A stretch of 64,000 bases of DNA from Acidobacteria bacterium SCN 69-37 (GTDB taxonomy: Bacteria > Acidobacteriota > Vicinamibacteria > Vicinamibacterales > SCN-69-37): contig MEDJ01000020.1 of the NCBI GenBank assembly GCA_001724025.1, positions 1-64,000 on the forward strand, in the 5' to 3' direction. The notes under the pieces were generated by a model. The model searched no databases and was not told where the DNA came from. It saw only the letters and a list, made by a program, of their open reading frames with translations. Within the stretch, counting starts at the first letter, position 1. Each line of letters begins with the position of its first letter. The position numbers and the translations under genes are program-made. Positions 9,712 through 56,278 of this stretch are shown here, piece by piece.

Positions 9712-9779
9712 GAGGCGGGGAGGCGACGGGCTGGGAGGAGGCTGGAAGGCCGGGAGGCGGGGAGGCCGCCCGGGGGGCG
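9712..9779. repeat. G/A-rich intergenic repeat
   Basis: A purine-rich stretch built from GGCTGGGAGGAGGCTGGAAG-like units begins directly after the epimerase stop. Related copies lie near 15562, 16757, 21515, 33001 and 34215. The many GGG/GGGG runs would allow G-quadruplex formation. No gene is seen in it. Confidence 0.6.
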
Positions 9780-9879
9780 TGTTAGGATGCGCGGAGATTC
9801 CCGGCGGTCGTCGCTGTTCCGCGTTCCGGTGCTCCACACCGGCCCTCCGCGCCTCGTCGGGTCAGCCAAGGAGTGACGC

Positions 9880-36089: not shown

Positions 36090-36154
36090 TGACGTCCTCC
36101 CCATTCTGAGTAGCGTTTCGGTTTAGAGTCCGGCCTAGCCGAAAGGGTTGGACG

Positions 36155-36418
36155 ATGAAGAAGCGGTTCACGGAAGCACAGATTGTCGGGTTCCTGCGGG
36201 AGGCCGATGCCGGGGTGGCGGTGAAGGACCTGTGCCGGAAGCACGGGTTCTCGGCGGGCAGCTACTACCTGTGGCGGAGCAAGTTCGGTGGCATGAGCGT
36301 GTCGGATGCCAAGCGCCTGAAGGAGCTGGAACTGGAGAACGCCCGGCTGAAGAAGCTCTTGGCCGACTCGCTGCTCGAGAACGAGGTGACCCGCGAGGCC
36401 CTCCGCCGAAAATGGTGA
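36155..36418 (+). CDS. IS3-family OrfA transposase subunit
   Basis: This 87-residue protein has a HTH_Tnp_1 helix-turn-helix (KKRFTEAQIVGFLREADAG, then VAVKDLCRKHGFSAGSYYLW) and a leucine-zipper-like coiled coil (LKELELENARLKKLLADSLL). It is complete. The orfB ATG lies inside its last codons in the -1 frame (ATGGTGA at 36412-36418), the standard arrangement for IS3 fusion by frameshifting or coupling. Confidence 0.92.
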   Translation: MKKRFTEAQIVGFLREADAGVAVKDLCRKHGFSAGSYYLWRSKFGGMSVSDAKRLKELELENARLKKLLADSLLENEVTREALRRKW

Positions 36419-37104
36419 CCGCACCGGCCCGCCGCGTCCTGGTGCGGAGCATGGTCGAACGCGGCCTCAGCGAGCGACGCGCCCTGGCGGTGGTGGGCAT
36501 GAGCGCCTCGGCCTTGCGCTACACCCCTGGCCCCGACCGGAATGCCGCCCTGCGGGCGCGGATCGTCGCGCTGGCGCATCGGCATCGCCGGTACGGCGCC
36601 GGCATGATTCATCTGAAGCTGCGCCAGGCCGGCGAGGCGGTGAACGCCAAGCGCGTGCATCGCCTCTACGTCGAGGAGCGGCTCCAGATCCGCCGACGAC
36701 GGCGCAAGAAGGTCCCGATTGCCGAGCGCCAGCCACTCGTCACGCCGACGGCGCCGAACGACGTGTGGTCCGCCGACTTCGTGTTCGACCGGACGGCCGA
36801 CGGCCGCGTGCTCAAGTGCCTGACCATTGTGGACGACGCGACCAAGGAGGCCGTCGCCATCATCCCGGCACGCGCCCTGGGCGGCGTGGCGGTGACGCGG
36901 GTGCTCGACCGGCTGGCCGCCACGCGCGGGCTCCCGCGGGTATTGCGCACGGATAACGGCTTGGAGTTCTGCGGGAAGGCGATGCTGACGTGGGCGCACG
37001 AGCGGCGTGTCACGCTGCGGCTCATCGAGCCAGGGAAGCCGACCCAGAACGCCTACATCGAATCGTTCAACGGGCGCTTCCGCGACGAGTGCCTGAACGG
37101 GGGG
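36412..37104 (+). pseudogene. IS3-family OrfB transposase, 3'-truncated
   Basis: About 230 residues of the rve integrase-type transposase. The first part is HRRYGAGMIHLKLRQAG. The DDE triad is intact: WSADFVFD (D), LRTDNGLEF (D) and NAYIESFNGRFRDECLN (E). Homology stops right after RDECLN, where an OrfB usually continues ~30-40 residues. The reading frame then runs as nonsense into the antisense of istA. Confidence 0.87.
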
Positions 37105-38044
37105 AGACGGGCGGCTCCAGCACGAACGACGAGTACGGCTGCCGCGCCAAGGGCTGCAACTGCAGTCGCTCCTCGCGATCGAAGCGCGCGCGTGGGGACT
37201 CCTGCATGGTCGCATGCACGCGGACATTGGCGACGCCCTCGAGCCACTGCTCGCACTGCGCCGCCAGATCGGCATCGTGGAGAAACGTCCGGCCGTAGAC
37301 GAAATTGCCGCGCAGATAGCGCACGGGGCGCTCGACCTTGCCCTTGGTCTGCGCGCGATACGGCCGACACGCCCGCGGCGCGAAGCCCCAATGCGCGGCG
37401 AAACGGAGGAATTCGAGATTGCGGATGAGCGCGCCGCCCTGGAGCCGGAGATCGCGCGTGATGACGGCCTTCATTTGATCGAACAGCATCTGCTGCGGCA
37501 CGCCGCCGAAGTATCGAAAGGCGTCCTCGAGTCCGCTCACCAGCGTGCGCATGTCCTGGCGCGCATAGAACCGACACCACAACAGGCGGGAGTAGCCGAG
37601 GACGACGAGCAAGGCGTAGCGGACGCCGAACGGAAAGCGGAAGTGCGCGAAGTCCACTTGCGCCTGCTTGCCCGCCGGCGTCTCGAAGCGGATCACCGGA
37701 GCAGGGGCAGGCCTCGGCCGCACCTGTCGCACCCACGCGGTGAGCTGCGAATACCCGCCGGTATACCCGGCCGCGCGAATCTCGGCCAGCAACCGCACGG
37801 CGGACAACTCGGGATACGTCGTCAGCCGCGCCTCGATGATCGCCTTGTACGCGTCGAGCTTGGTCGGGACCGACGGCCGAGGCCCGTAGCCGATCGGGGC
37901 GTCGAGATCGCGATCCAGATCGCCCGTGCGAATCCAGCGGTGCACCGTGTCGCGGCTGAGGCCGAGCTGCCGCGCCAGCGCGCTCTTGCTGCCGCCCTGC
38001 GCCAAGGGAATCGTGTAGGCGCGATACGCGACGCTGCTCGTGCC
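37105..38044 (-). pseudogene. IS21-family IstA transposase fragment
   Basis: About 310 residues, truncated at both ends. The N-terminal part is GGSKSALARQLGLSRDTVHRW (HTH). The integrase core carries KQAQVDFAHFRFPFG (D), PQQMLFDQMKAVITRD (D) and YRAQTKGKVERPVRYLRGNF (E). The C-terminal part ends at SSFVLEPPV, where it meets IS3 DNA. The partner gene istB and both terminal repeats are missing. The N-terminal side runs within ~25 nt of the last CRISPR repeat without a start codon. Confidence 0.85.
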
Positions 38045-41000
38045 GGGTGCATCCCCGCGAGCGCGGAGGAATCTGCGACGACGTGAAGTCCACCGACGTA
38101 TTCGAGGGTGCATCCCCGCGAGCGCGGGGGAATCGATCCGAATGAGTTGGGCGCGCTCTGGCTGAAGGGTGCATCCCCGCGAGCGCGGGGGAATCCTCGA
38201 CGCCGGTCTCGTCGGTGAGAAAGCCGAAGGTGCATCCCCGCGAGCGCGGGGGAATCCACAGACCGGCGTGAATAGGGATGGCAAGCGGAGGTGCATCCCC
38301 GCGAGCGCGGGGGAATCGCTGGCGCGAAGTGTGGAGTGTCGTCTAGACCGGGTGCATCCCCGCGAGCGCGGGGGAATCCGCGCGGTCCTGTCCGCGCTCG
38401 CGGAGGGCCGGGGTGCATCCCCGCGAGCGCGGGGGAATCCGCGTTGTCGAGCCGGACTCGCCGAGAGAGCAGGGTGCATCCCCGCGAGCGCGGGGGAATC
38501 GATGCCACGACAGAGGATGCCAACCTTCGGTAGGGTGCATCCCCGCGAGCGCGGGGGAATCTCGTCCTCGACGTGGATCGCGGTGCTCGACGCGGGTGCA
38601 TCCCCGCGAGCGCGGGGGAATCGACTCGATGTGCTCGCGTGTGTAGCGATGCCCGGGTGCATCCCCGCGAGCGCGGGGGAATCCGGAGCAGTTGACGTCG
38701 AGAGGAGGCGGGCATGGGTGCATCCCCGCGAGCGCGGGGGAATCGCGGACGCGGATGGTGCCCGTCTGGTCGGGGTAGGGTGCATCCCCGCGAGCGCGGG
38801 GGAATCGCGTTCGGGCTGACGCCGCTGGACCGGAGCCGGGGTGCATCCCCGCGAGCGCGGGGGAATCAGCCTCGACGCTGAACAACTTCAGGTCGTGGAG
38901 GGTGCATCCCCGCGAGCGCGGGGGAATCTCGCGCCGATGCTCGGGAACGCGGCGCCGCCGGGGTGCATCCCCGCGAGCGCGGGGGAATCTGACGCGCCCT
39001 TCGATATCACCGAGTCCACGAGGGTGCATCCCCGCGAGCGCGGGGGAATCGCGTGCGTGTCGGAGCGGGACGACGATGCCGTGGGTGCATCCCCGCGAGC
39101 GCGGGGGAATCGTCATCCGGCAGGCGCGGAAGGATGGCCGGCAGGGTGCATCCCCGCGAGCGCGGGGGAATCGATCCGCGGTTCCCGCGTGCGCTGCCGG
39201 ATCGGGGTGCATCCCCGCGAGCGCGGGGGAATCGTCCAGCTGCTCGTACCGCATGACGGCCTGGAGGGTGCATCCCCGCGAGCGCGGGGGAATCGTCGAA
39301 GAGACGCTGAAGGGCGTAGACGCCACGGGTGCATCCCCGCGAGCGCGGGGGAATCCCGGATCGCGCGAATGTCCGACGCTTTGCGCAGGGTGCATCCCCG
39401 CGAGCGCGGGGGAATCCGAGCCGCCGAACGATCCTGAAATTCCGGATGGGGTGCATCCCCGCGAGCGCGGGGGAATCTCCGCGATGGTGTCTACGATCGG
39501 CTGTGCGAGGGGTGCATCCCCGCGAGCGCGGGGGAATCTCGTAGCCGCGGAAGTAGGCGCGATCCTCCTCGGGTGCATCCCCGCGAGCGCGGGGGAATCC
39601 CGGTCGTCGAACCTGTAAGCCCGCCTTACACGGGTGCATCCCCGCGAGCGCGGGGGAATCTGTGGCAGCGTGTAGGCGAGGCTGGTGCGGCGGGGTGCAT
39701 CCCCGCGAGCGCGGGGGAATCGCCTCCCGCTGGTTCCCTGAGGACATCCACGCGGGTGCATCCCCGCGAGCGCGGGGGAATCTCTACGCCGTCGCCGCGG
39801 AATCCCGCACCTTTGGGTGCATCCCCGCGAGCGCGGGGGAATCAGCGAAAGACCAGCCCGGAGTCAGCAGCGTGACGGTGCATCCCCGCGAGCGCGGGGG
39901 AATCGCCGCCTATCGCAAGGTGGTCCACGCCGGGCAGGGTGCATCCCCGCGAGCGCGGGGGAATCGATGACTTGCTTGCGAACGACATCCGTCACAGGGG
40001 TGCATCCCCGCGAGCGCGGGGGAATCCGCCGATGCCAGCCTCGCCGCCCTCACGGGCAGGGTGCATCCCCGCGAGCGCGGGGGAATCTTCCTCAGCCTGG
40101 CTCATAACGGCCGTTGTCAGGGTGCATCCCCGCGAGCGCGGGGGAATCCCGAACACCTCTCCCTTGCGCGACTTCAGCGGCGGTGCATCCCCGCGAGCGC
40201 GGGGGAATCTCTGGCAAGAGGCGGCCGATGCCATCGCCAAACGGTGCATCCCCGCGAGCGCGGGGGAATCGACCGTCGCCGGCATGGACGACGCGACATG
40301 CAGGGTGCATCCCCGCGAGCGCGGGGGAATCGAGGCGCGCCTGCAGACGGCGATCTACGCACAGGGTGCATCCCCGCGAGCGCGGGGGAATCCTGTTTCC
40401 GACGTTCTGCGTCCTTTGCCAACTGGGTGCATCCCCGCGAGCGCGGGGGAATCGATCGGCTGCGCTCGATGCGGCCTGACGAAGCGGGTGCATCCCCGCG
40501 AGCGCGGGGGAATCGCGGTGTCGCTGGTGGAGCCGTTCCTCGTGTCGGGTGCATCCCCGCGAGCGCGGGGGAATCTCGAGCGTCGCCTTCTTCCCGTCGG
40601 CCAGCGCGGGTGCATCCCCGCGAGCGCGGGGGAATCTGCCGCCAGCTCAGCCGCCAGCCGCCGATATTGGGTGCATCCCCGCGAGCGCGGGGGAATCATG
40701 GCTGCACGAGGCCAAAACGCTCAGTGCACGGGTGCATCCCCGCGAGCGCGGGGGAATCCCTGATCCCGAGAACACGAGGATGCCCTCGACGGGTGCATCC
40801 CCGCGAGCGCGGGGGAATCTTGTACGCCTCAGCCAGCGCATCGGTATCGCGCGGTGCATCCCCGCGAGCGCGGGGGAATCGAGACAACGACGCGGACGCG
40901 TCAACACACACCGGGTGCATCCCCGCGAGCGCGGGGGAATCGGTCCGTCGATCCGCTTCATCGCCGGCAGCGGGGGTGCATCCCCGCGAGCGCGGGGGAA

Positions 41001-44000
41001 TCGTCGCGACGCGTCAGCACGGCGATGGCATTTAGGGTGCATCCCCGCGAGCGCGGGGGAATCTAACTCGCCCCCTCGGCGCGTCCGCCCCGCGAGGGTG
41101 CATCCCCGCGAGCGCGGGGGAATCTGGTCGAGCATCGGATGGGTGAGCACGTCGCCGGGTGCATCCCCGCGAGCGCGGGGGAATCAGGCGCATTCTGGCG
41201 CATGTCCGATAACGTAGGGGTGCATCCCCGCGAGCGCGGGGGAATCCGGTTTCGCGGCACCGGCGATCGAACGGCGGCGGGTGCATCCCCGCGAGCGCGG
41301 GGGAATCGGAGGGCAAGGATGACGCACCCTGTGCGATTCGGGTGCATCCCCGCGAGCGCGGGGGAATCGCAAACTGAATGTATAGGCGCCAGTCCCGAAC
41401 GGGTGCATCCCCGCGAGCGCGGGGGAATCACCGCAGCAGCGGGGGGCACTCGCGCCGGGGAGGGTGCATCCCCGCGAGCGCGGGGGAATCGTCCATGCCT
41501 TGCCGACGTGCATCAGGCAGAAGGGTGCATCCCCGCGAGCGCGGGGGAATCAGCCCCGCCGAATCTCCTCCGTGTGGCTTGTGGGGTGCATCCCCGCGAG
41601 CGCGGGGGAATCGGCGCGAACTTCCGGACGGTCGGCGACGAATGGGGTGCATCCCCGCGAGCGCGGGGGAATCGCCGGAGTCGCGAAGGTCTGACATCGT
41701 CGGCCGGGTGCATCCCCGCGAGCGCGGGGGAATCCGGAGAGCGAAGCCGCTGTCGCCATCCCGGCGCGGTGCATCCCCGCGAGCGCGGGGGAATCGCCCG
41801 CAACCAGTTCGTCGATCTCGGATTGGAGGGTGCATCCCCGCGAGCGCGGGGGAATCTACAGGAACCTCCGGCGGCGCGACACGCTACGGGGTGCATCCCC
41901 GCGAGCGCGGGGGAATCAAGACACCGACGTATCGGCTGAAGGCGAAATGGGGTGCATCCCCGCGAGCGCGGGGGAATCGAATCGCGCCAAATGGCAGACG
42001 ACTTTGACCCGGGTGCATCCCCGCGAGCGCGGGGGAATCGTGGACGGGCGGTTTCGGTGCCACCGATGCCCGGGTGCATCCCCGCGAGCGCGGGGGAATC
42101 CACGGATGCGATCCGTGACGTGCGAGTGGCCCGGGTGCATCCCCGCGAGCGCGGGGGAATCGTGAGCGTCGTGCCCACACGCAAGACCTCCGTGGGTGCA
42201 TCCCCGCGAGCGCGGGGGAATCCGACCACGACTCTTTTTTTTGATGGGCTGAATGGGTGCATCCCCGCGAGCGCGGGGGAATCGCGAGGACCATGTACGT
42301 GCCGCGGCCGGCGAAGGGTGCATCCCCGCGAGCGCGGGGGAATCTACGCGCGATCTGGCCTTCGCCTGCGCGAAGGAGGTGCATCCCCGCGAGCGCGGGG
42401 GAATCTGAACGTCGCGGTTGCCTGGGTGCGCCGGACGGGGTGCATCCCCGCGAGCGCGGGGGAATCAGCGCCTCGGCGAGCGCGTAGACCCGATCCGTGG
42501 GTGCATCCCCGCGAGCGCGGGGGAATCACGCTGGGGGGACTGGCAGCCGCGCAGCGGACGGGTGCATCCCCGCGAGCGCGGGGGAATCGACGCGCTCCTC
42601 AGTAGCGACGCCACCTTCGAGGGTGCATCCCCGCGAGCGCGGGGGAATCTGGACGGCGCGCGCGCGGGGCGAGGATGCCCGGGGTGCATCCCCGCGAGCG
42701 CGGGGGAATCATCGCGGTCGACCGAATCCGCTCCATCTGCTCGGGTGCATCCCCGCGAGCGCGGGGGAATCGCGGCCCGGCACCGGCTGCGGCGCCAGAT
42801 CGAGGGTGCATCCCCGCGAGCGCGGGGGAATCTTTCGCAGGCGCGGGCGCATCCTAGCGATCCCGGGTGCATCCCCGCGAGCGCGGGGGAATCCGTCAGA
42901 TCGATCGGGCGTGGTGTCGTCGATGGGGTGCATCCCCGCGAGCGCGGGGGAATCTCATTACTTCAGTCGGCACGGAATCCCCATAGGGGTGCATCCCCGC
43001 GAGCGCGGGGGAATCTCGTCGGGCTTCACCGAGATCCCGTAGTGCGGGGGTGCATCCCCGCGAGCGCGGGGGAATCTGTTTGTGCTCTTCATGCGCGCGG
43101 TCGTGCGAGGGTGCATCCCCGCGAGCGCGGGGGAATCTCTGTCGCTGAGGAGGCGGCGTTCGATACATGGGGTGCATCCCCGCGAGCGCGGGGGAATCGC
43201 CGTCGATGGTGGCCTCGATTGAAGCCATGCGGGTGCATCCCCGCGAGCGCGGGGGAATCAGTATCTGCCCGTCGCCGATGGCGCGCGCCTTGGGTGCATC
43301 CCCGCGAGCGCGGGGGAATCGGCACGCGGCGCAGGTCGATCGACGCGTCGCCGGGTGCATCCCCGCGAGCGCGGGGGAATCTACTCCCAGGTGCCGGCGC
43401 TGTAGCCAGCTGGGGGTGCATCCCCGCGAGCGCGGGGGAATCTCCCACACGAGGTCCGCCTTGCGCACTTCGGCGGGTGCATCCCCGCGAGCGCGGGGGA
43501 ATCGCGAAGCCAGGCGCGCCGTTCTGCTCTCGCTGGGGTGCATCCCCGCGAGCGCGGGGGAATCCGGTCATCGGGAGTCATGCGTTCTTCGCGGGGGGGT
43601 GCATCCCCGCGAGCGCGGGGGAATCACGAGCGCGCCGATTGCGGTGGGCACTTGGCAGGGTGCATCCCCGCGAGCGCGGGGGAATCCGGACACGCGCGAC
43701 GATCTTCGTCTTCACTGCGGGTGCATCCCCGCGAGCGCGGGGGAATCGCGCTGATGCTGCCGAGCGTGAGACCGGGCCGGGGTGCATCCCCGCGAGCGCG
43801 GGGGAATCTCGTCGATCTCGAAGATGACCTCGTCTCCATCGGGTGCATCCCCGCGAGCGCGGGGGAATCCCAGACGCCGTCGCTCCGGCGGTATGGCCGA
43901 CGGGTGCATCCCCGCGAGCGCGGGGGAATCAACGACACCGGCACGTAGGTCAGGACGAACGAGGGTGCATCCCCGCGAGCGCGGGGGAATCGCGAGCAGA

Positions 44001-47000
44001 CGGCCATCAGACGGCGAGCCTCAGGGTGCATCCCCGCGAGCGCGGGGGAATCGGGCCGGGCACGTAGGCGAGCTGACTCGCGCAGGGTGCATCCCCGCGA
44101 GCGCGGGGGAATCGACGCCGGGCAGCAACTCGCGCGCAAGGTCGAGGGTGCATCCCCGCGAGCGCGGGGGAATCGCCATCTGCTCCCAGATCGGGGCCGT
44201 CGCCTTGGGTGCATCCCCGCGAGCGCGGGGGAATCTGGTCTTCATGGTCGTCATCACGAGATCCTCAAGGTGCATCCCCGCGAGCGCGGGGGAATCCATG
44301 TCGTGAAGTTCACGCCATCGACGAGCGTGGGTGCATCCCCGCGAGCGCGGGGGAATCGCGTTAGTCTCCAGGCGGGCGGCGATCATCGACGGTGCATCCC
44401 CGCGAGCGCGGGGGAATCTTCAACGCCGAAGTCGGCCTCTATATTCGGATGGGTGCATCCCCGCGAGCGCGGGGGAATCAACTACGGACGCGTGGCGGTG
44501 CTCGCCGGCGAGGGTGCATCCCCGCGAGCGCGGGGGAATCTTCCTCCGATGGCTGCTCGCGCACGGCGTCGAGGGTGCATCCCCGCGAGCGCGGGGGAAT
44601 CTTAGGATGAAGGCGGTGGAGGTGCGCGAGTCAGGGTGCATCCCCGCGAGCGCGGGGGAATCGGGAACGAGCTGCCGGAGGCCGCTCGCATTGTGGGTGC
44701 ATCCCCGCGAGCGCGGGGGAATCGCGATCGACTCGGCCGCTTGGTCAGCCGTGACGGGTGCATCCCCGCGAGCGCGGGGGAATCCGGACTAGGTCTGCCC
44801 GAGGCCCAAGGGACAAGGGTGCATCCCCGCGAGCGCGGGGGAATCACTGACGGCGGTGACATGGGAAAAGCCCCAGCGGGTGCATCCCCGCGAGCGCGGG
44901 GGAATCGACGTCGCGCGCACCCACACGCCATAGGTGTAGGGTGCATCCCCGCGAGCGCGGGGGAATCCCCAGCACTCGGCGCACTGAAGGCCGCGCCCAG
45001 GGTGCATCCCCGCGAGCGCGGGGGAATCTTGGCCGAGAAGGGCGGGGGGGGATATCAAAAGGGTGCATCCCCGCGAGCGCGGGGGAATCAGCGGGCGCGG
45101 GCCATCGAGCGGAGCGTAGGACGGTGCATCCCCGCGAGCGCGGGGGAATCTTCGACACGTTCCATGCCAGCACCGGATGGCCGGGTGCATCCCCGCGAGC
45201 GCGGGGGAATCGCATCCGCCCACGGCGCCCACTGATACGCATCGGGTGCATCCCCGCGAGCGCGGGGGAATCTCCATCGGCCGATCTGCCACCCAGCGAA
45301 CGCGGGGTGCATCCCCGCGAGCGCGGGGGAATCGATTGGCTCCTGCGTCGTGGCCTTCGTCGTCAGGGTGCATCCCCGCGAGCGCGGGGGAATCTACTGG
45401 GCACTGGGTGGCCGGTATGTTGGGTCGGGTGCATCCCCGCGAGCGCGGGGGAATCGCATCACGCTTCGCCAGCGCCGCCAGCGAGTAGGGTGCATCCCCG
45501 CGAGCGCGGGGGAATCGGGCACAGCGGCGTCAGCCCCTCCCACGCCCAGGGTGCATCCCCGCGAGCGCGGGGGAATCGAGTGAACACGCGGCTAGCACCA
45601 TCAACAGCGGGGTGCATCCCCGCGAGCGCGGGGGAATCGCCCGCGAACGACGACTCGAAGTCCATCGACAGGGTGCATCCCCGCGAGCGCGGGGGAATCT
45701 CGGCTGGCGTGTACCACTCGTTGTTTCCGCTGGGTGCATCCCCGCGAGCGCGGGGGAATCGTCCGCATCGGCCGGCCGCTGTGGTTTGGCTGGGGTGCAT
45801 CCCCGCGAGCGCGGGGGAATCGTGCCGAGGCACGGGCCGAGATGCCCGACGCCGGGTGCATCCCCGCGAGCGCGGGGGAATCCGAACCAACACGACGACA
45901 ATGGCACCGCGTCGAGGTGCATCCCCGCGAGCGCGGGGGAATCCCGCGTGCGGCGCGCACGTGGGCGGGCATCGAGGGTGCATCCCCGCGAGCGCGGGGG
46001 AATCTTCGCCCCGCGTCGCGATGCCGACAGCCCGCCGGGTGCATCCCCGCGAGCGCGGGGGAATCGTGCCCGGAATGGCACGCTGACGGTTTCAACAGGG
46101 TGCATCCCCGCGAGCGCGGGGGAATCGGACCGCCCTGCGCCATACGCAAGATCTGCGTGGGTGCATCCCCGCGAGCGCGGGGGAATCGCGACTTCATCCG
46201 ATCAGCCGCGCTGCTCGCCGGGTGCATCCCCGCGAGCGCGGGGGAATCCACGCCACCATGACGTGGAGAGCGTGGGGATCGGGTGCATCCCCGCGAGCGC
46301 GGGGGAATCCGAGCCCGCCAAACTCACCGCAGTCGTGCGTCGGGTGCATCCCCGCGAGCGCGGGGGAATCGACGGAGGGAGAGAGCGATGCGAGTGAATA
46401 GAGGGTGCATCCCCGCGAGCGCGGGGGAATCAAGTGCGGCCGCTCGATTTCGAGCGTGATGAAGGGTGCATCCCCGCGAGCGCGGGGGAATCCGTTGAAC
46501 GCCGCCCCCGGCTGAATGGCGCCGGGGTGCATCCCCGCGAGCGCGGGGGAATCTCGTCGATGCGGTCCACGAGCCGAATCGACGACGGTGCATCCCCGCG
46601 AGCGCGGGGGAATCGGCTGGATGAGCATGTCCTGCCCCCATAACACGGGTGCATCCCCGCGAGCGCGGGGGAATCGACCGTCGCCGGCATGGACGACGCG
46701 ACATACAGGGTGCATCCCCGCGAGCGCGGGGGAATCGTCCTCACCTCGACGAAGGCCCTCCAGGCGCAGGGTGCATCCCCGCGAGCGCGGGGGAATCGGC
46801 ATCGGTCCCGCGGGCGCGCGCCGTCCACCGGGTGCATCCCCGCGAGCGCGGGGGAATCGCCCAGCTGCTGCAGATCGACGAGCAGGTGTAGGGTGCATCC
46901 CCGCGAGCGCGGGGGAATCTGGGCGGATCTGAGTCTGTCGTCTCATAGCTAGGGTGCATCCCCGCGAGCGCGGGGGAATCGTGCCGGCGATCACGCGCAC

Positions 47001-47041
47001 GCCGCGCGAGCAGGGTGCATCCCCGCGAGCGCGGGGGAATC
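38045..47041 (-). CRISPR. Type I-E CRISPR array, 148 repeats and 147 spacers
   Basis: The 29-bp repeat is, in crRNA sense (minus strand), GATTCCCCCGCG, then CTCGCGGGG, then ATGCACC plus one variable base. It has a CCCCGC/GCGGGG stem and an 8-nt handle ATGCACCC, matching E. coli-type I-E repeats. The period is 61 bp throughout (32-bp spacers), except for one 33-bp spacer between repeats at 38717 and 38779. Repeats are identical apart from the leftmost, which has one change (GCGGAGG, 38063-38071), marking it as the old end. The leader and cas genes are on the right. Long open frames through the array are artefacts of the repeat. Confidence 0.98.
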
Positions 47042-47119
47042 TCTAGAATCACGCCTGATTCTTGAGAGTCGTGCGAGCGCAGCCCGCACGAACGAATTGT
47101 AGACTGCCTGGGGCGACTC
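47042..47119 (-). promoter_or_regulatory. CRISPR leader with two inverted repeats and array promoter candidate
   Basis: Only 78 nt separate the newest repeat from the exonuclease start codon. They contain GAATCA-CGCC-TGATTC (47046-47061) next to the repeat, and TCGTGCG-N9-CGCACGA (47069-47091). On the minus strand a -10-like TACAAT lies at 47096-47101, with a weak -35 (TTCATG, 47119-47124) 17 nt away that overlaps the ATG of the divergent exonuclease. Transcription would start near 47089, so the 7-bp palindrome would form a 5' hairpin on pre-crRNA. Confidence 0.5.
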
Positions 47120-47614
47120 ATGAAACCGTTCGTTGCTCTCGACGTTGAGGTCGCGTCTCGCACTCCGATGCGCATCTGTGCCATCGGAGCCGTCCGTGTC
47201 GAGTCCGGGCGCGAGGTCGATTCGTACTACTCACTCGTTCGATCGGACGGCCGAGTGCGATTCACCCACATCCACGGCCTCACGGCTGCGGACCTGATGG
47301 ACGCTCCTCTCTGGCCAGTGGCCTGGCAAGGTGTACGAGCGCTGCTCGGCGATATTCAGACAGTCGTCGCGTTTCGAGCAAGCTTCGATCGCGGGGCTAT
47401 CCTGTCCGTCTGCGGCCGTCACGGCATACGACTTCCACGGTTGCGGTTCGTGTGTGCAGCCCAGATGTTCAAGCGGCAATACGGCCGCGACATGACGCTC
47501 CGCGCCTCGCTCGACCACTTGGGGCTCACGTTTCCCGGGCAGCCGCACCATGCGCTTGCGGACGCAAGAGCCGCGGCCACTATCGCGCTGGCCTGCTCGC
47601 CCGGCGAGGAATGA
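47120..47614 (+). CDS. Stand-alone DnaQ-like DEDDh 3'-5' exonuclease in the cas locus
   Basis: This 164-residue single-domain exonuclease has motif I ALDVEVAS (D8, E10), motif II VAFRASFDRGA (D90) and motif III HHALADARAA (H143, D148), a complete DEDDh set. It lies between the leader and cas2 on the strand opposite to the cas operon. Its stop is 6 nt from the cas2 stop, and its start codon overlaps the probable array promoter. In several type I-E systems a DnaQ domain is fused to Cas2 and trims prespacer 3' ends before integration. Here Cas2 is short and the exonuclease separate, so a role in spacer acquisition is inferred from position. Confidence 0.85.
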   Translation: MKPFVALDVEVASRTPMRICAIGAVRVESGREVDSYYSLVRSDGRVRFTHIHGLTAADLMDAPLWPVAWQGVRALLGDIQTVVAFRASFDRGAILSVCGRHGIRLPRLRFVCAAQMFKRQYGRDMTLRASLDHLGLTFPGQPHHALADARAAATIALACSPGEE

Positions 47615-47620
47615 AGGTGG

Positions 47621-47941
47621 CTATTCAGTTGTCACAGAGCTGTCGGAGACGCCACGATCAAGCCACATGCCAGCGGCCTCGACGAACTCCTTCTTCGGCC
47701 AGCCGAGTAGGCGGACCGCCTGACCGCTCGGCGACTCTTTGTCCCGCCAGGTCATCAACACGCCGCCGTCGTCCGGCAGCGCACCGGCCCATTCGCAACA
47801 CACGTCCCAGACGCGTTCCCTCACGCCCGCACTCATCTTCGGACTGGCATAGACACCGGGCGCCAGTTCCAGCATGCAACTCGCCAGAAATCCCCGATAC
47901 CGTTCCGGCACGTTGCGCGTCACGACGACGGTCATGCTCAT
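47621..47941 (-). CDS. cas2: CRISPR-associated Cas2e
   Basis: This 106-residue type I-E Cas2 (CasI-E/ygbF family) begins MSMTVVVTRNVPERYRGFLA and contains LELAPGVYASPKMSAGVRER. These are hallmarks of Cas2e, the dimeric scaffold of the Cas1-Cas2 integrase. It lacks the C-terminal DnaQ extension found in fused forms and ends SDSSVTTE. Last gene of the operon; its ATG overlaps the cas1 stop (ATGA). Confidence 0.95.
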   Translation of the reverse strand: MSMTVVVTRNVPERYRGFLASCMLELAPGVYASPKMSAGVRERVWDVCCEWAGALPDDGGVLMTWRDKESPSGQAVRLLGWPKKEFVEAAGMWLDRGVSDSSVTTE

Positions 47942-48813
47942 GGAGACGTCCCGGCCTGGTTGAACAGGGATTTGATGCGGTCGATCATGGAGGGGATGAC
48001 CTGCTGGTCGGTCAGGGCGCGTGCCGAGGCCCGTCGTGCCAGGCGCTCGAGCGGCTCACCGGGAGACCGTTCGGACTCCCGCACCGCACGAAACGCGGCT
48101 GGCAGGCACACGCTCTCGCGATACAAGTCGGCGATATCGAGGCAGAACGCGTAGCTCGAATCCTCGTGAATGAACCCCAGTTGCGGAATCGTTGACGTGG
48201 CCGCGACAGCAACCATCGCGGCCGCACGGATGGCTGCCGATCCATGATTGACGGCCTGATTGACACGGTCAGTGGCTTCCGGGTCGTTTCGGTCGTATCG
48301 CCTTCCCGCCCAGTTCAAGCCAAACTGACGCGCGAGACTTCGGTACAGCGTCTTCACGCGCGCGCCTTCGATGCCGCGCAGCACGTTGAGGTCGTCGGAC
48401 GGCAGAACTTCGCCGAGCCGCCACGCGTACATGCGTCGCGCCACGTGCAGGCGCTTCTCGGCGTCGGACCACGTGCGAACCTGAGAGCGGGCCAGCGCGC
48501 TATCGTCCTGGCCGAACGGCATGGACGCGTAGAAGCGAACGCCTTCCTCGCCGGTCACGATGAGGCCGGTTCCGTGGCGCGCCAGGAGCCGAAGCGCATC
48601 ATGACTGATCGTCGAGCCAGGCTCCAGAACGATGACGCTGACCGTTTGAAACGGGATCCCGTAGTCGCCAGCGGCCAGTGCGTCGCTGCCGGCCGTTCTG
48701 AATCGGAGCGTGCCACCCTCGACGGTGAGGTTGCCTCGACGGAGCCAAAGACAGCCGTGTCGATCCGCGTGAGGCACGCGAGCCGTTTCAAGACCCAGGC
48801 GGCCTTTGAGCAT
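47938..48813 (-). CDS. cas1: CRISPR-associated Cas1e integrase
   Basis: This 291-residue spacer integrase has catalytic residues matching E. coli Cas1: E149 (LRGIEGARVK), H216 (GFIHEDSSYAF) and D226/D229 (LDIADLYRE). Start ATG 48813 (MLKGRLGLETARVPHADRHG) is one nt after the cas6e stop; the longer open frame to 48969 overlaps cas6e and is not conserved in character. A Pro/Arg-rich tail (SLFNQAGTSP) closes the protein. Works with Cas2 and probably the adjacent exonuclease. Confidence 0.96.
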   Translation of the reverse strand: MLKGRLGLETARVPHADRHGCLWLRRGNLTVEGGTLRFRTAGSDALAAGDYGIPFQTVSVIVLEPGSTISHDALRLLARHGTGLIVTGEEGVRFYASMPFGQDDSALARSQVRTWSDAEKRLHVARRMYAWRLGEVLPSDDLNVLRGIEGARVKTLYRSLARQFGLNWAGRRYDRNDPEATDRVNQAVNHGSAAIRAAAMVAVAATSTIPQLGFIHEDSSYAFCLDIADLYRESVCLPAAFRAVRESERSPGEPLERLARRASARALTDQQVIPSMIDRIKSLFNQAGTSP

Positions 48814-48814
48814 G

Positions 48815-49576
48815 TCAGTCGCTCGCTGGTCGCACGAGCAGCATGCCGAAGCCGAACGCGCGATGCCGCCCGACACCGCGAATAAGAAGCTTGCGGAACT
48901 CTGCGGGGACACCGACCGACAATCTGCCTTCCATGACCGCGTTCGGGCGTTCGAGTTTCGCGTCGCCACCGCGCCGCATCGTTTCTCGTCTGAACTCCGC
49001 CAATGAAGCGTCCTTGACGGAACAGGCGCCGTCTCGCTCCATCTGACTCTTCAGCCAATGCACGTACACGTCTTCCCGATCGACTGTGGCTCCGTCAGGT
49101 GCATTGAGGGCGGAATGAATGAACGCATCGAGCTCTCTATGCTTGGGCCGGCCACTCCGGCCGACATCCAGCGGCCGGGTACCGGGCTGCCTGGTACGGA
49201 CGACGGGGCATGTGCGGGTGCGGAAGGCGACCAGCTGGCCGTCAACGAGGGGGGGCATTTCCCGCGTCTTACAGTCGTGAAGGAGATCGGCGGCTGACGG
49301 CCCCATCGCCTCTTCTAACTGGTGCTCATCCATGTCCGCGTATGCTAAAAGGAAGAGCAAGTCGGGCCGTTTCGATGACGCCTCGCACACGTCGTCAATG
49401 GCAAAGGTGAAGAGCGGAACGTCGGCGCGGTCCGTCGACTTCGCGAACAACTGGGAGAGGCCGGCATGAAGCAGGGCTCCGTCGTCGACCGATCGTCCGA
49501 GACGATGACGGACGCCTACTCTGAGCAGCGCGCGTCGGTCGAGCACGAGACGGACCAAGAATAGCGGGGAAGTCAC
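48815..49576 (-). CDS. cas6e: Cas6e crRNA endoribonuclease
   Basis: This 253-residue Cas6e/CasE begins MTSPLFLVRLVLDRRALLR. The two-RRM fold ends in the glycine-rich loop IRGVGRHRAFGFGMLLVRP typical of the family; the segment LSVGVPAEFRKLL precedes it. It cleaves pre-crRNA at the base of the repeat hairpin and stays bound in Cascade. The start overlaps the cas5 stop by 4 nt (ATGA). His residues near the N-terminus (e.g. VRHRLG) could be the catalytic His. Confidence 0.93.
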   Translation of the reverse strand: MTSPLFLVRLVLDRRALLRVGVRHRLGRSVDDGALLHAGLSQLFAKSTDRADVPLFTFAIDDVCEASSKRPDLLFLLAYADMDEHQLEEAMGPSAADLLHDCKTREMPPLVDGQLVAFRTRTCPVVRTRQPGTRPLDVGRSGRPKHRELDAFIHSALNAPDGATVDREDVYVHWLKSQMERDGACSVKDASLAEFRRETMRRGGDAKLERPNAVMEGRLSVGVPAEFRKLLIRGVGRHRAFGFGMLLVRPASD

Positions 49577-50244
49577 GATCGGGTCTCCTCTGGTACTGCC
49601 GGCCGCTTGATCCAGTCCGTGATGACGTAGCGACGCGCGTGACGTCGTTCAACACGAGAGAACGAGACTGGGACGTCGCTGCGTGCGTCGCCGCTGTCGC
49701 CGGTCGATTCGACAACGATTCGGTACGGCGGTTCGTCTGGGCGGTCGCAGAGAGGGGCCGCCAGCAAGGCACTCCGCATGTCGCCGTCGACGATACCGAT
49801 CAGGGGAACCACCGACGGCGGACAGGACCTGCGCCCGAGGAACAGTGGATATCGAGGCGAGTACAGGGCATCGGCGATGCGCCCGAGTAGCGTCGTGTCG
49901 CCTTCGAGCGCGGCGACAAAGCTGGCGTCCTGCAGGTAGTAACGATGGGAAACCACCGTGCCCTTGGTGCCGTACACGCTGTACTCCCGTCCTCGGAAGG
50001 CACCTCCCCCGGCGGTGTGGTAGTCGTGAAGCAGCGTACCTGCCCGGTCCACGCGGACGCCCATTCGGACTGTGCTGAGCTCCGAAACACGATCATCGTC
50101 GTCGCGCTGCACGCCGAGCGCCGCGGCGATGAGGCCAATCACGCCGCTCTTCGTCGGTTCTCGCTCTGTGTCTCTGATTCCCATCCTGCCCTGTGTCGAC
50201 CACGCCTGAAGGGGACCCTCGAGACGAACGACGAGCACGCTCAC
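49573..50244 (-). CDS. cas5e: Cascade subunit Cas5e
   Basis: This 223-residue Cas5e/CasD starts with the RAMP strand MSVLVVRLEGPLQAWSTQGR and the family segment RDTEREPTKSGVIGLIAAALG. It also has HDYHTAGGGAF and LGRRSCPPS. It caps the 5' handle of crRNA in Cascade. Overlaps cas7 upstream and cas6e downstream by 4 nt each. Confidence 0.95.
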   Translation of the reverse strand: MSVLVVRLEGPLQAWSTQGRMGIRDTEREPTKSGVIGLIAAALGVQRDDDDRVSELSTVRMGVRVDRAGTLLHDYHTAGGGAFRGREYSVYGTKGTVVSHRYYLQDASFVAALEGDTTLLGRIADALYSPRYPLFLGRRSCPPSVVPLIGIVDGDMRSALLAAPLCDRPDEPPYRIVVESTGDSGDARSDVPVSFSRVERRHARRYVITDWIKRPAVPEETRS

Positions 50245-51449
50245 GACGAGGCTCCACCACCACGCACGTGATCTTCGACAGTTCGATAGAACTCGTCGAT
50301 TGTCGTGATTCTGCGAGGCGCGGATTCATCGGTCGGCAGATCACGATCCGCCCAGGTGATGCGCTCGGCTTCGCCGAGCACGCCCTGCAACCTCGCGGCG
50401 TAAGACTCCAGCTTCTGGATCGAGTCATCCACGAGGTCTGCGTCGTCTCCCTTTGGTCGGGCCGGCTTCAGGAAGGCATTCGCTAGCGAGAGCGGCTGAC
50501 CTTTGTCGCGGATCACCGCCAGGGCATAGCTCGGAAAGTTGTGAGCGGCCATGCTGTTCTGCTTGCCCGTGGGGATGGCGCTAACGAACGCCTGCGCGAA
50601 GGCCCGGACCGCACGCTTCAGAAGGACATCGTCATCGTTGTCGAGGTTGGTACGGAGAGAATCGACATCGATGACGGTATAGCGGTAGAAGCAGGACGAG
50701 TTGAACTGGACGGTCCCCATCATGTCGGAGCCGGCTGTGTCCTTTGGCTTGAGGTCGTCAACAGCGGTGAAGAAGTCGAAGTCCATTTGGACGCGGTTCG
50801 TGGAGATGGCGTGCGCTACCTGACAGGATGCGTCCACGTTCCAGTCGGGTTTGTCGGCGATCATGCGGCCGAAGAGCGCGATATCCACCGTTCCCTTGGC
50901 GGTTCTCAGCAGCTCATCCAGTCTTGCTTTGAGTTCCTTCGGATACGCGCTCTCAGCGGCCTTCTTCGCGTCCCGACCGCTCCGCTTCTTCTCGTCCTTG
51001 GCAGGCGGCTCGTTGGGGACTGTAGTCGGTGCGAGCGCCGCACGGTGCTCGTTCAGTACGCTCGCGATGTCGCGAATGATGCGGCGAGGAACGAACAGAA
51101 GATACTCCGTCTTCTGCTGGTCGTCTTCGTCGCCCTTCTTGCTTCTGCCAAGTCCCACGCCATCAATGGCGCCAGTCGCCAAGGCGAGCGCTTCCTCAGT
51201 CGAGTGGCCAAACTCGTTTCGAAGGACGTCGGCGATGCTGTGGGCCAACCGCTTGGTGCGGGCGCCACGATTGTCGTCGTCAACAAGCCGCTCGAGTTCG
51301 AACATCTGGCGGATGGCCCGCTTCTGGGTCTGACTCGAGAGACGGGCGCGGCGGTGACCGCCGAACTCACAGTCTTTCGGAGCCCCCGTATCGTCTCGAT
51401 TCAGGTTCGACGGCGCAAAATTCTGGAGGATGTGCAGCTCGATCTTCAC
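50241..51449 (-). CDS. cas7e: Cascade backbone subunit Cas7e
   Basis: This ~402-residue Cas7e/CasC forms the hexameric crRNA backbone. It starts at GTG 51449 (KIELHILQNFAPSNLNRDDT, then RRARLSSQTQKRAIR), 8 nt after AAAGGA. The in-frame extension to 51695 covers cas11 and is not real. Further landmarks are FGRMIADKPDWNVDASCQVA, TAGSDMMGTVQFNSSCFYRY and NSMAAHNFPSYALAVIRDKG. At ~400 residues it is a little longer than the E. coli protein; a Lys/Arg-rich insert (AKDEKKRSGRDAKKAAE) accounts for it. Confidence 0.95.
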   Translation of the reverse strand: MKIELHILQNFAPSNLNRDDTGAPKDCEFGGHRRARLSSQTQKRAIRQMFELERLVDDDNRGARTKRLAHSIADVLRNEFGHSTEEALALATGAIDGVGLGRSKKGDEDDQQKTEYLLFVPRRIIRDIASVLNEHRAALAPTTVPNEPPAKDEKKRSGRDAKKAAESAYPKELKARLDELLRTAKGTVDIALFGRMIADKPDWNVDASCQVAHAISTNRVQMDFDFFTAVDDLKPKDTAGSDMMGTVQFNSSCFYRYTVIDVDSLRTNLDNDDDVLLKRAVRAFAQAFVSAIPTGKQNSMAAHNFPSYALAVIRDKGQPLSLANAFLKPARPKGDDADLVDDSIQKLESYAARLQGVLGEAERITWADRDLPTDESAPRRITTIDEFYRTVEDHVRGGGASS

Positions 51450-51465
51450 GTTTGAGGTCCTTTCG

Positions 51466-51978
51466 TCAGGAAGCTGTGGTCGGGAGAGAGTCGTCTGAGT
51501 CGTGAATCCAGAAGGCGCGCGCCCATCTGCGGCGAGTGTTGTTTGAAGGGTGATTCCAGAATCGAATGGCCCGATGAAGGTCCACCCAGTCAAGTCCGAT
51601 TCCGGTGCTGGCCACCAGGCCGACCGCGTGCCGAAGATGCGGGCCGAGATCGACTCTATCTGCGCCAAGCAATGCCCGGAATCTGAGTTCGACACTGTCG
51701 CTGACCTGGGCGAGGAGTCTCAGGGCCGAGGGAAGAGATGAGCTGCCCGACTCGGGGTGCAGTGCAAACAGGCCCGCGAGCAGCAGCGCATCGTCTTCCG
51801 CCTGTCTCGTCGAAGTGTTGCGTGACGAGACGAACGGGAGAACGATTGGCAGGCCTTCTAGAGCCCGATTTTCCTGAAGGCTGGCTCGAAGGCGCGCCAA
51901 CGCCGCGCGTTCCTGTCGGGAGGCGAGGGTTTCCAGGTGATGCACGAGAAGGTCGCGATGTTCTTCGGGCGTAGTCAT
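51466..51978 (-). CDS. cas11: Cascade small subunit Cas11 (Cse2)
   Basis: This 170-residue helical Cse2/CasB starts at MTTPEEHRDLLVHHLETLAS, then RQERAALARLRASL. Its C-terminal part is LHRAIRFWNHPSNNTRRRWARAFW, the family's basic end. Two copies bridge the Cas7 filament in Cascade. ATG 51978 overlaps the cas8e stop (ATGA). The frame reaching 52080 lies inside cas8e and is not used. Confidence 0.92.
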   Translation of the reverse strand: MTTPEEHRDLLVHHLETLASRQERAALARLRASLQENRALEGLPIVLPFVSSRNTSTRQAEDDALLLAGLFALHPESGSSSLPSALRLLAQVSDSVELRFRALLGADRVDLGPHLRHAVGLVASTGIGLDWVDLHRAIRFWNHPSNNTRRRWARAFWIHDSDDSLPTTAS

Positions 51979-53549
51979 GTGAGGGAGTCTCCTACGGTCG
52001 ATGCGGGCGTGGTCGACGCGGTGAGTCTGGATAGCGCGGCTCGGAAGGACTGTTCCGCCAAGGCTCTGGCTTTGAGCCACCGTCCGGTCGTTTCTGTCCG
52101 CTCGGTCGCGTTGTGAAACACGCCGGTGACGACGCGTGTCGCTTCGCGCTGGAACTCTTCCAGCGCGTCCTGTGGGTCGTCTGCGAGTCGTCTCATAAAG
52201 TGGTCGAAGACAACGCCGAGACCACTCCAGGCAGCGGGTGCGGCTCCAAAGGAGTCGGCAAGCGCGCGCACATCGTCGGTGGCGGGATCGCGCTCCCCTG
52301 GGGCGAGCGCGACGCGTGCGTATCGAAATAGAGCGGCGCTCAGCGAAGACACGCTCTGCTCGGCTACTCGGATGGCTTCCCGTACCGCTGAGGCTGCTTC
52401 GGGGTCGTTGAAGCAGCGGCCCTGCGCTTGGACACGTTCTGCACGTACAGCATCGATCCGAGACTTCTCGGCGGCCATGCCCAGAACTTCGATGTCGAAC
52501 GTGACGCTACCGAGAGTCTCGACGGCCTCGTTGCTGGCGACGAGGTCGATCGCATGAGGTCGTTCGAACGCCGAGGAGTCGCTGCGGGCCGCCTCGAACA
52601 GTGCGGCGGAGCTTCGCCAAAATGCGCGGTCGACATCAACGCCGATAGGAAGCCACCCCAGCTTCTCGTGTCGACGATAGGCGAGCATGGGATCGCGGGG
52701 GGCAGCGTCAGGGAGGCCCTGCCAGACGGCATTGACGAAGTGGGTGACCGTCCCTTCGTCGTGGACGAGCTCGACGCGGCGACTCAGCCGCGTCAAGAGG
52801 TCGAGATAGCCGAGCGGCGGATACTTCGGCTCACTGGACAGGCGCAGTTCGGTCGGCGGCGGCTCTTGCTCCCAGGCGCACGCGTCGCGTGCGCCGCCGG
52901 TCGGCACAGGTTCGCTGTCCCCGTACTTCAGAAGGTTGGCGGCGAGTGTTTCGAAGAGAGTCCTGCCACGGACGACGATCACGGCACCGCGAACGAGGGG
53001 CGCCGCCGTTGCTGCCGTTGGTTCCCCCGGCTTTCTCACTAGGCCACCGGTCGCAAAGGCGTGATACGCAAGCAGGGCGCGGGCGGCACGCCTCGGGGAC
53101 ATCGACGGTGAAATTGAGGCTGGTCGATGCTGGAAGAGTTCCCGAGCCCCACCCCACCGGGCCCGCGCGACTTCGAGTTCGTCGATTGGCGTCAGGTAGT
53201 CACTGAACTGCGCCAGGAGCCCACGTGTCTGCGCAAACGGCCGCGTGGGGTGAAAGAGGTCCATGCGGTCCTCGACCGAATCCAGATACGCGTGCACTTT
53301 GGCGGCTTCGAACGCTCCAGAGGACGCGATGGCCGCCCATTCCTTCATGGAGCGGGGGCCATCGTACGCTCGATGGAGCACCGCGAGAAGATGCCGCGTC
53401 AGTGCGGCGATCGCCAGAGGAGAGACGTCGGCCAGTGCGCGGATGTGATGCGCGTTGGCGAGGGCATCTCGAGTTGACATCTCGGTCACCGTGCCATCGG
53501 GGAGTTCGACTTGGAGCCAGGGACGACTGGTGAGGTTGAAGGATGCCAT
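51975..53549 (-). CDS. cas8e: Cascade large subunit Cas8e (Cse1)
   Basis: This ~524-residue Cas8e/CasA recognises the PAM and recruits Cas3. It begins MASFNLTSRPWLQVELPDGT, the standard Cse1 start. Next come LADVSPLAIAALTRHLLAVL and HPTRPFAQTRGL, and the C-terminal four-helix bundle is near YARVALAPGERDPATDDVRAL. ATG 53549 lies inside the end of cas3 (64-nt overlap), with no strong ribosome-binding site, which suggests translational coupling. Confidence 0.94.
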   Translation of the reverse strand: MASFNLTSRPWLQVELPDGTVTEMSTRDALANAHHIRALADVSPLAIAALTRHLLAVLHRAYDGPRSMKEWAAIASSGAFEAAKVHAYLDSVEDRMDLFHPTRPFAQTRGLLAQFSDYLTPIDELEVARARWGGARELFQHRPASISPSMSPRRAARALLAYHAFATGGLVRKPGEPTAATAAPLVRGAVIVVRGRTLFETLAANLLKYGDSEPVPTGGARDACAWEQEPPPTELRLSSEPKYPPLGYLDLLTRLSRRVELVHDEGTVTHFVNAVWQGLPDAAPRDPMLAYRRHEKLGWLPIGVDVDRAFWRSSAALFEAARSDSSAFERPHAIDLVASNEAVETLGSVTFDIEVLGMAAEKSRIDAVRAERVQAQGRCFNDPEAASAVREAIRVAEQSVSSLSAALFRYARVALAPGERDPATDDVRALADSFGAAPAAWSGLGVVFDHFMRRLADDPQDALEEFQREATRVVTGVFHNATERTETTGRWLKARALAEQSFRAALSRLTASTTPASTVGDSLT

Positions 53550-56278
53550 ATGGAAGATTCTGGACGGATTTTGCGAACGAGAAGGCCGAGTTCCGGATCG
53601 AGCTCGAGCCGGTGTTCGCCTACAAACGCAATGTTGTCGTGGAAGGCGACTGCGCGGCGGTACCGGAGGGCTGCGCGGCTCGTCCAAGAGGGCGGCGAGT
53701 AGGCGGAGTCGTTCAATAGTGCCCGAACGACAGCTGGCCGAGACACCGAGATCGTCCGCTGTGCCAGTCGACGCGTGACGGTCCAGTCCGGCTCAAGGCT
53801 CAGATCAAATGGATCTGCGTCCTGCTCTGACAGGAATACCTGTCCGTTTCGACCGACAAGGCAGACCACCTGGACAGACAGATCGACGTCGCGAGTCAGT
53901 GCCTTCAGCTCTTCGTGAATCTGAGGGTCTTCGTCGTCGCCGAACGGCATTCGAAGGTCCCCGAAAAGGTCATCCTCGTCGTATGGTGACGGCACCAACC
54001 GCGTCTGAGCCATCTGAGTCTTGGCGATGGACGTTCCCAGATAGTCGTTGTGTGCCTCGATGAGGGAGTCATCGGCCGGCGGCGCGCCCGAAAGGTACAC
54101 CTCGTCCACGAGTGATTCGATCTCGGCCGGCAGTGACATCGTGGTACGCCCCTGCAGAACCTTGAGCGTGCGGCGGACCAACCACTCCGCGTAGACTCCG
54201 GCGACCTCGCGAATGGGGACACTATCGAACGACCCTGCCGGATATGCGATCCAGAGTCGAGGCGTGTCGTGGCCTGCCGATCGATTGGTCCTGTCCTGGT
54301 GTCGATGGAGTCGCCCTGCTCTCTGCAGCAGCAGGTCGATCGGGGCAAGGTCCGTGACGAGAAGGTCGAAGTCGACATCCAGGCTTTGTTCGATGACCTG
54401 TGTGCCGATGACGAGATGGCGTTCCGGCCGTTGAGCGCCACGGCGCTGCGGTCCGAGAAGGTGCTCCAAGCGCTCCTCGCGGGCCTGACGATCAGCGGGG
54501 AGCATGCTCGCATGCAGCAGTGTGCCCGGCACCTCTGGCGCGAGGCGCGCGACGGCTGCGCGCGCCGATTGGGCCCGCGCGATCGTGTTGCAGATCCAAC
54601 CGACACATCCCCCGTCGCGAACGGCATCTACCGTGAGTCGAGCGATGGTTTCGATGTCCGGATCGATGCGCTCGATCTTGACGCTGATCGGTTGCCCTCG
54701 TGGAGACACGTGCCGCGCCGAGACGTGGTCGAGGCTGATCGTCGTGATTCGCGGGTAGCTGGCCTCAGGGAACGTCGGCAACTCGCGAGAGAGTCCGAGG
54801 CCGTTTCGATAGGCCGTCAGAAGGCGTTGCCTCCGCAGACGCGGTAATGTGGCCGACAGCAGCACAACGGTCGTCCCCATAGCTGCGAGCCACTCAAGCA
54901 GCCGATCAAGAATTGCACTGGTGAACGCGTCGTATGCGTGAACCTCATCAAGCACAACAGTCTTGCCAGCCAGTCCGAACAGACGGACGAAGGCATGGCG
55001 CGTCCGGAGGACGCCCAGTAGCGCCTGGTCAACCGTACCGACGCCGTACTCGGCCAACAGGGCGCGCTTCTTGGGGAGAAACCATTCTTCGGCGCGAACG
55101 CCGCCGAGGCGGACTGAGTCGTCATCATGAACTGCCCGTATCGAGCGAAAGGCCTCGACTGAATCTGCGTCTGCATGGGCAAGAACCAACGTCGACGCAA
55201 CCATGGGTTCACTGTCGTTCAGAAACGTCCTGGTACGCCCGAACATCTGATTGGCCGTGGCTCGAGTGGGGAGACCAACGTATAGACCGTGCTGGCCCAA
55301 TCGGCTGGCTGCCGCCTGAGCAATGAGAAGCGCGGCCTCAGTCTTGCCTTCTCCCATCGGGGCCTCGATAACCACCAAGGATGGCGACGCCAATGTCGTG
55401 GCTACATCTTCAGCCGCGACATGAAGCGGCCAGGGGGACAGGAAAGGGAACAGCTCGCCAAAGCCACGATTCGACCGCGTAGCGGGAGGCCGCATGCCGA
55501 CAGCTTCGAGCGCTTCCAGGGCCCGCTTCAGAGCGAGGGGCCAATACACCTCGAGCGGCACTTCCGGCAGCTCGTAGGGAAAGCAGTCCTCCATGGAGCC
55601 GATCCAGTCGGCGACCGATGTCATGCCTGCGAGGCACATGACGTAGCCGTGGTCGATCGCTGACGGGACCTCTGGGCCGACGTCAAAATGCCGGCGTAGC
55701 AGGTCGATCGCATCTCGCCGAGCCTCGTCCCAGCAAGGGCGCTCGCCGCGTTCACGCCTGCTCATGGGGGCTCTGTTCAGGGAGGCGTCGGTCGGAAACT
55801 CACCATGATGGGCCGCGACAGCCCGCGCGATCGATCGCGACACCGCCTTGGATGCGCCCAGGGCGAGCAGCGCCTCGCACACGAATCCGACACCTGCTGG
55901 GCCATGGCGCTTGGAGAGAGTTGGCGGATTGAGGTCAAAGCCGCGGGCTGCGAGCAGGCGCCTGGCCCAATCAACCTTCGCCTGGAACGCGGGCGTATAT
56001 TTCCCTATGTCATGGAGGGCGATTACGAAGAGGAGAAGTCTCAGGGACGCCGGTTCGTCGGGCAGGAGACTCAGGAGCCGACGACGTAGCGCTCGCGGGG
56101 CATGTGTCGTGAGAAGGTGGTGAGCTACCGCGGCAACATCCAGCATGTGGTACAGCAATGGATGCGCCGGACAGCGGCCGGTAGGCTGGGCCTTCCCCCA
56201 GCACTCCCAGGCTGGACGGCCGGCCGCGACCGCGATCCAGGCGTCAGGACTGATGAACGCGGTCTGGGACCGATTCAC
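53486..56278 (-). CDS. cas3: Cas3 HD nuclease-helicase
   Basis: This 930-residue protein fuses the HD nuclease and the SF2 helicase. HD: H44, H89-D90 (VIALHDIGKYTPAFQAK), HH at ~157-158 and D224 (SVADWIGSME). Helicase: Walker A APMGEGKT (306-313), box II VVLDEVHAYD (444-447 DEVH), SAT at 475-477. C-terminal helicase motifs are in EQSLDVDFDLLVTDLAPIDL and QRAGRLHRH. GTG start 56278 with GAGG 7 nt upstream. First gene of the operon. It degrades DNA bound by Cascade, acting 3' to 5' by family precedent. Confidence 0.97.
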   Translation of the reverse strand: MNRSQTAFISPDAWIAVAAGRPAWECWGKAQPTGRCPAHPLLYHMLDVAAVAHHLLTTHAPRALRRRLLSLLPDEPASLRLLLFVIALHDIGKYTPAFQAKVDWARRLLAARGFDLNPPTLSKRHGPAGVGFVCEALLALGASKAVSRSIARAVAAHHGEFPTDASLNRAPMSRRERGERPCWDEARRDAIDLLRRHFDVGPEVPSAIDHGYVMCLAGMTSVADWIGSMEDCFPYELPEVPLEVYWPLALKRALEALEAVGMRPPATRSNRGFGELFPFLSPWPLHVAAEDVATTLASPSLVVIEAPMGEGKTEAALLIAQAAASRLGQHGLYVGLPTRATANQMFGRTRTFLNDSEPMVASTLVLAHADADSVEAFRSIRAVHDDDSVRLGGVRAEEWFLPKKRALLAEYGVGTVDQALLGVLRTRHAFVRLFGLAGKTVVLDEVHAYDAFTSAILDRLLEWLAAMGTTVVLLSATLPRLRRQRLLTAYRNGLGLSRELPTFPEASYPRITTISLDHVSARHVSPRGQPISVKIERIDPDIETIARLTVDAVRDGGCVGWICNTIARAQSARAAVARLAPEVPGTLLHASMLPADRQAREERLEHLLGPQRRGAQRPERHLVIGTQVIEQSLDVDFDLLVTDLAPIDLLLQRAGRLHRHQDRTNRSAGHDTPRLWIAYPAGSFDSVPIREVAGVYAEWLVRRTLKVLQGRTTMSLPAEIESLVDEVYLSGAPPADDSLIEAHNDYLGTSIAKTQMAQTRLVPSPYDEDDLFGDLRMPFGDDEDPQIHEELKALTRDVDLSVQVVCLVGRNGQVFLSEQDADPFDLSLEPDWTVTRRLAQRTISVSRPAVVRALLNDSAYSPPSWTSRAALRYRRAVAFHDNIAFVGEHRLELDPELGLLVRKIRPESSIWHPSTSPVVPGSKSNSPMAR

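Follow-up and report, generated by a model that had tools for sequence, protein, structure and literature searches.

Two near-identical spacers far apart in a type I-E CRISPR array probably record repeated sampling of one site in a variable element

We analyzed a window of 64,000 nucleotides (the whole stretch of DNA under study) from Acidobacteria bacterium SCN 69-37 and found that spacers 37 and 142 of its type I-E CRISPR array share strand and register and agree at every one of their 32 positions except crRNA nucleotide 3, which is C in the older copy and T in the younger. In all likelihood these spacers stem from two separate acquisitions by the type I-E system at the same site of a variable element. 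Double capture is favoured because the gap between the copies spans 105 units, their neighbours are unduplicated and mutation within arrays is too rare; from this we infer two captures and a variable source. In the mechanism that we propose, a single element lineage that recurred, whether virus or plasmid, would have yielded a spacer twice from one PAM-defined site. That lineage would have had C when first sampled and T when sampled again, 104 other spacers having been gained and kept in between, and the second capture would have supplied a crRNA exactly matching the T variant.

The array occupies positions 38046-47041 on the minus strand and is read from its high-numbered end. It comprises 148 repeats of 28 nt, each with a PAM-like 29th nucleotide, and 147 spacers, of which 146 are 32 nt long and one is 33 nt. 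Recomputed from the raw window, the repeat is GGTGCATCCCCGCGAGCGCGGGGGAATC, and 147 of the 148 copies are perfect; the exception, a degenerate leader-distal repeat with one mismatch (38046-38073, minus strand), marks the old end. At the 29th repeat position, 134 of the 147 units have C, 8 have G and 5 have T. The probable leader, of about 78 nt (47042-47119, minus strand), was assigned from the array orientation and by position only, as the interval from the first repeat to a gene for a DEDDh-family exonuclease. Two landmarks place it at the high end: the degenerate repeat occupies the low end, and the cas operon, including cas2, lies beyond the high one. Further type I-E loci of the phylum support this orientation through the same layout, their arrays likewise beginning beside cas2. 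No second array of this kind occurs in the 4.43-Mb genome. An ORF encoding an IS3-like transposase with an integrase core (36148-37428, plus strand) adjoins the old end and may have removed older spacers from the array. Within the array, spacers 76 (42650-42681) and 144 (46798-46829) show a partial likeness on opposite strands (24/30), which perhaps reflects a diverged homologous site or else GC-rich chance.

Beyond the high end of the array lies a complete type I-E cas set of eight genes, all on the minus strand (47621-56278), the subtype named also in an earlier, sequence-only reading of this DNA. In order from the array these are cas2e (47621-47941; PF09707), cas1e (47938-48969; TIGR03638, 282 bits), cas6e or casE (48815-49576; TIGR01907, slightly under the curated cut-off), cas5e or casD (49573-50244; TIGR01868), cas7e or casC (50241-51695; TIGR01869), cse2 or casB (51466-52080; PF09485), cse1 or casA (51975-53687; TIGR02547) and the gene for the helicase-nuclease Cas3 (53486-56278; TIGR01587 and TIGR01596), with uncertain starts for cas1e, cse2, cse1 and cas3. 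The genome contains one cas1 gene, matched as two pieces of one ORF. Because so few genomes of the order (only 4 of 162), and none of the other tested genomes of the family, have a cas1 that passes the type I-E cut-off, the whole locus (47621-56278) was probably gained horizontally.

A stand-alone gene for a DnaQ/DEDDh-family exonuclease (47120-47614, plus strand; PF00929) separates cas2 from the leader and runs opposite to the cas genes. In the PDB its product matches chains of DEDDh and Cas2-DEDDh type (8fyc and 8fy9); 8fy9, one of its closest solved relatives, is the Cas2-DEDDh protein of a CRISPR trimmer-integrase (PMC10284694). DEDDh-like ORFs, recognized by eye from the motif DTETTGLGPYD, also lie between cas2 and the array in the type I-E loci L085 (2990-3619) and L107 (3190-3816) of this phylum; those are on the cas strand, whereas the gene here is inverted relative to cas. 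Judging from these matches, the DEDDh protein may act as a prespacer trimmer, in which case it would help to fix the identical boundaries of both captures.

Spacer 37 (40271-40302, minus strand; crRNA sense TGCATGTCGCGTCGTCCATGCCGGCGACGGTC) is the 111th from the leader, and spacer 142 (46676-46707, minus strand; crRNA sense TGTATGTCGCGTCGTCCATGCCGGCGACGGTC) is the 6th. The variable base is found on the minus strand at 40300 in spacer 37 (C in the crRNA, G on the plus strand) and at 46705 in spacer 142 (T in the crRNA, A on the plus strand). The sequence-only reading had given the same spacer numbers, coordinates and ranks, and these proved correct on recomputation from the raw window, as did the 31/32 identity with its single C/T difference at nucleotide 3. 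The match is not due to chance, since all other same-register pairs in the array show at least 11 mismatches (the next closest has exactly 11) and the minimum among column-shuffled spacers never fell below 11 in 20 shuffles. The two spacers are separated by 104 others, and their neighbours are unrelated and not duplicated; the sequences, order and orientation of the pair are, like the complete cas set, direct observations. Both units carry C at the 29th repeat position, which is non-discriminating because 134 of the 147 units share it, and the two sites have an exact 57-nt stretch in common. The C/T change is non-synonymous in five of the six reading frames, including the two likeliest by codon usage, in which HVASSMPATV becomes YVASSMPATV and TVAGMDDATC becomes TVAGMDDATY, respectively.

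We compared the pair with 31 other arrays, comprising 1,254 spacers and 48,269 spacer pairs. Exact copies within these arrays, seen in L079, L080, L089 and L099, lie 1-3 units apart. Two pairs, both in type I-E arrays of this phylum, resemble 37/142 in having the same strand, the same boundaries, a homologous site and non-adjacent positions. Spacers 12 and 61 of L087 are identical at 26 of 32 positions in the same register, 49 units apart, with a conserved frame (QLEIVHLYD/QLELVHLYD), while spacers 9 and 19 of L104 share 27 of 32 positions in the same register, 10 units apart (AWCLHGKFHR/EWRLHGKLQR). To judge from these sequences, each of the two pairs apparently represents the same site sampled from diverged relatives. 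They differ from 37/142, with its single difference over 105 units, in showing 5-6 differences over 49 and 10 units. This same-register re-capture of homologous sites in L087 and L104 speaks for double capture in SCN 69-37, a route that calls for nothing out of the ordinary.

Two further arrays contain recurrences of other kinds. In L089 (genome G084, at about 9770-10110), spacers 16/20 and 17/21 are neighbours that recur four units on in the same order, with one SNP each (positions 17 and 23), and all 130 repeats of that array are perfect. Either two sites were re-captured there from a variant element, or arrays of different strains recombined, two origins that sequence alone cannot separate. 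Spacers 41 and 51 of L109 are similar with a one-base shift (27/31), and their differences are found only near one end.

The sequence-only reading had suggested looking for both protospacers in phage and prophage sequence. That search was run, and no protospacer of either variant was found in the host genome, in the genomes of its relatives, among GenBank phages or in IMG/VR, where exact, core and wobble-degenerate patterns were used. Searches with all 147 spacers against the host genome and 298 genomes of relatives returned no self-target and no convincing prophage target. A prophage-like IMG/VR contig (L042) retrieved by a 21-mer core match agreed with the spacer at only 24 of 32 positions, the first six all being mismatched, and was rejected. 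When 84,980 genomes were scanned with one wobble pattern, the sole match lay where a chromosomal gene of Paracidovorax anthurii begins and was judged to be chance. The only phage matches by blastn, those of spacer 142 to Arthrobacter phage Yang and Brevundimonas phage Kikimora, had E values of about 8 and were likewise rejected, and the blastn matches in plasmids appear, from their many joined pieces, to be CRISPR arrays whose repeats are similar. Given that the 29th base is mostly C, that the ends of repeats correlate with PAMs and that AAC is among the catalogued type I-E PAMs (PMC8482600), the PAM may reasonably be guessed to be AAC-like.

Several points count against double capture: the source element and its variation were not seen in any search for the protospacer, L089 shows that near-copies may arise by block events as well as by re-capture, and the prior favours duplication, given a published survey in which most repeated spacers were in-array duplications and about 1% were re-acquisitions (PMC11472070, Table 2). 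That survey and the exact copies 1-3 units apart in L079, L080, L089 and L099 speak for a copy of spacer 37 having arisen by slippage or recombination, been placed near the leader and diverged by mutation of one of the two. We nevertheless consider such copying improbable here, as the two spacers are neither adjacent nor part of a shared block, the younger one has the leader-proximal place that acquisition would give it, and a further mutation would be needed. In the internal repeats of the large type I-E arrays, 9 substitutions were counted over 34,435 nt, a rate at which array mutation or consensus error would affect a 32-nt spacer ~0.8% of the time; about 1.7% is expected over 64 nt. An error of sequencing or assembly, with the single base being a consensus error or a swap between copies, is very improbable indeed: the shared 57-nt stretch could let a short-word assembler exchange C and T or the flanks, but the 147 perfect repeats show errors to be very rare, each of the two alleles is resolved, and even after a swap the array would contain both variants. 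Spacers that SpacerPlacer classes as re-acquired or independently re-inserted (PMC11472070) likewise show one target taken twice at non-adjacent positions with the younger copy near the leader, and the pair 37/142 has just these features of a re-acquisition, being two copies that are neither in tandem nor in a block, the younger near the leader. Unlike those spacers, the copies here are not identical: a single base differs, and a variant would thus have been sampled the second time; moreover, the SpacerPlacer classes were reconstructed from groups of arrays, whereas 37/142 is read from a single array.

Double capture itself could have come about in two ways, each a special case of it. Related viruses or plasmids may have differed at nucleotide 3 independently of the array, each being sampled once at a favoured site, and to this we give a little under an even chance. 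The L087 and L104 pairs, diverged across the whole spacer with conserved frames, indicate that naturally diverged relatives do get sampled. Birthday arithmetic, too, makes one coincidence unsurprising: 147 spacers form 10,731 pairs, and with about 10,000 eligible sites one of these pairs should hit the same site. Changes between drifted relatives are, however, mainly silent as a rule, and the two spacers differ just once in 32 positions, in a way that alters the amino acid in the likely frames. The other way is that put forward in the sequence-only reading, namely that a virus escaped spacer 37 by a seed mutation and was later re-sampled at the same site. Of this, the double capture, far apart in the array and from an element varying at nucleotide 3, found support, but the escape is not demonstrated, because capture order leaves the mutation undated (array order dates captures, not mutation) and two coexisting lineages would give the same pattern. 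It is possible, though we would put it well short of even, that a C-form virus targeted by spacer 37 escaped by the C-to-T change at seed position 3, spacer 37 thereby selecting the T variant, and that the mismatched crRNA 37 primed re-capture as spacer 142.

Nucleotide 3 does fall within the type I-E seed (positions 1-5, 7 and 8), as had been claimed; Semenova (2011) reportedly identified position 3 as a seed position, and Datsenko (2012) and Fineran (2014) reportedly described primed adaptation from escape protospacers in the type I-E system of E. coli, all three being cited in PMC5005344. The complete cas set is in place, and the non-synonymous change in five of the six frames, the two likeliest included, is mildly favourable, being less typical of silent drift. 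Escape is also mechanistically sound given that, in E. coli type I-E, a point mutation in the seed restores plasmid transformation yet stimulates primed adaptation (PMC5005344). That system is of the same subtype, and new acquisition from a target with one mismatch in the seed would lead to the same end product, but 37/142 is known from the array alone and priming is not demonstrated here. On the other side, a random single difference lands in the seed with a probability of 7/32 (22%), and seed location multiplies the odds of escape by at most about 4.6. One of three single-SNP pairs in these arrays has its difference in the seed, where at least one is expected by chance 52% of the time. Of the 14 mismatches in the pooled re-captured pairs, 5 lie in the seed (P=0.17), or 4 of 13 (P=0.31) when 37/142 is left out, so that no enrichment is seen in this small sample; the 31 comparison arrays, with their 1,254 spacers, hold too few pairs to decide on seed clustering. 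Further against escape, neither variant has a protospacer among the sequences searched, the 104 intervening spacers reveal no tight coupling in time, and priming needs no second capture of the same site.

The re-acquired spacer is a kind of event already known. It seems doubtful, if conceivable, that the array documents, at one nucleotide, an arms race that went through a full cycle in nature, in which a seed escape was followed, some 100 acquisitions later, by a same-register update taken from the virus that had escaped, possibly with priming by the spacer that had failed. If the escape is true, a single genome keeps both sides of it, in order; even without escape, the pair 37/142 would stand as a clean case of a type I-E system sampling one site twice.
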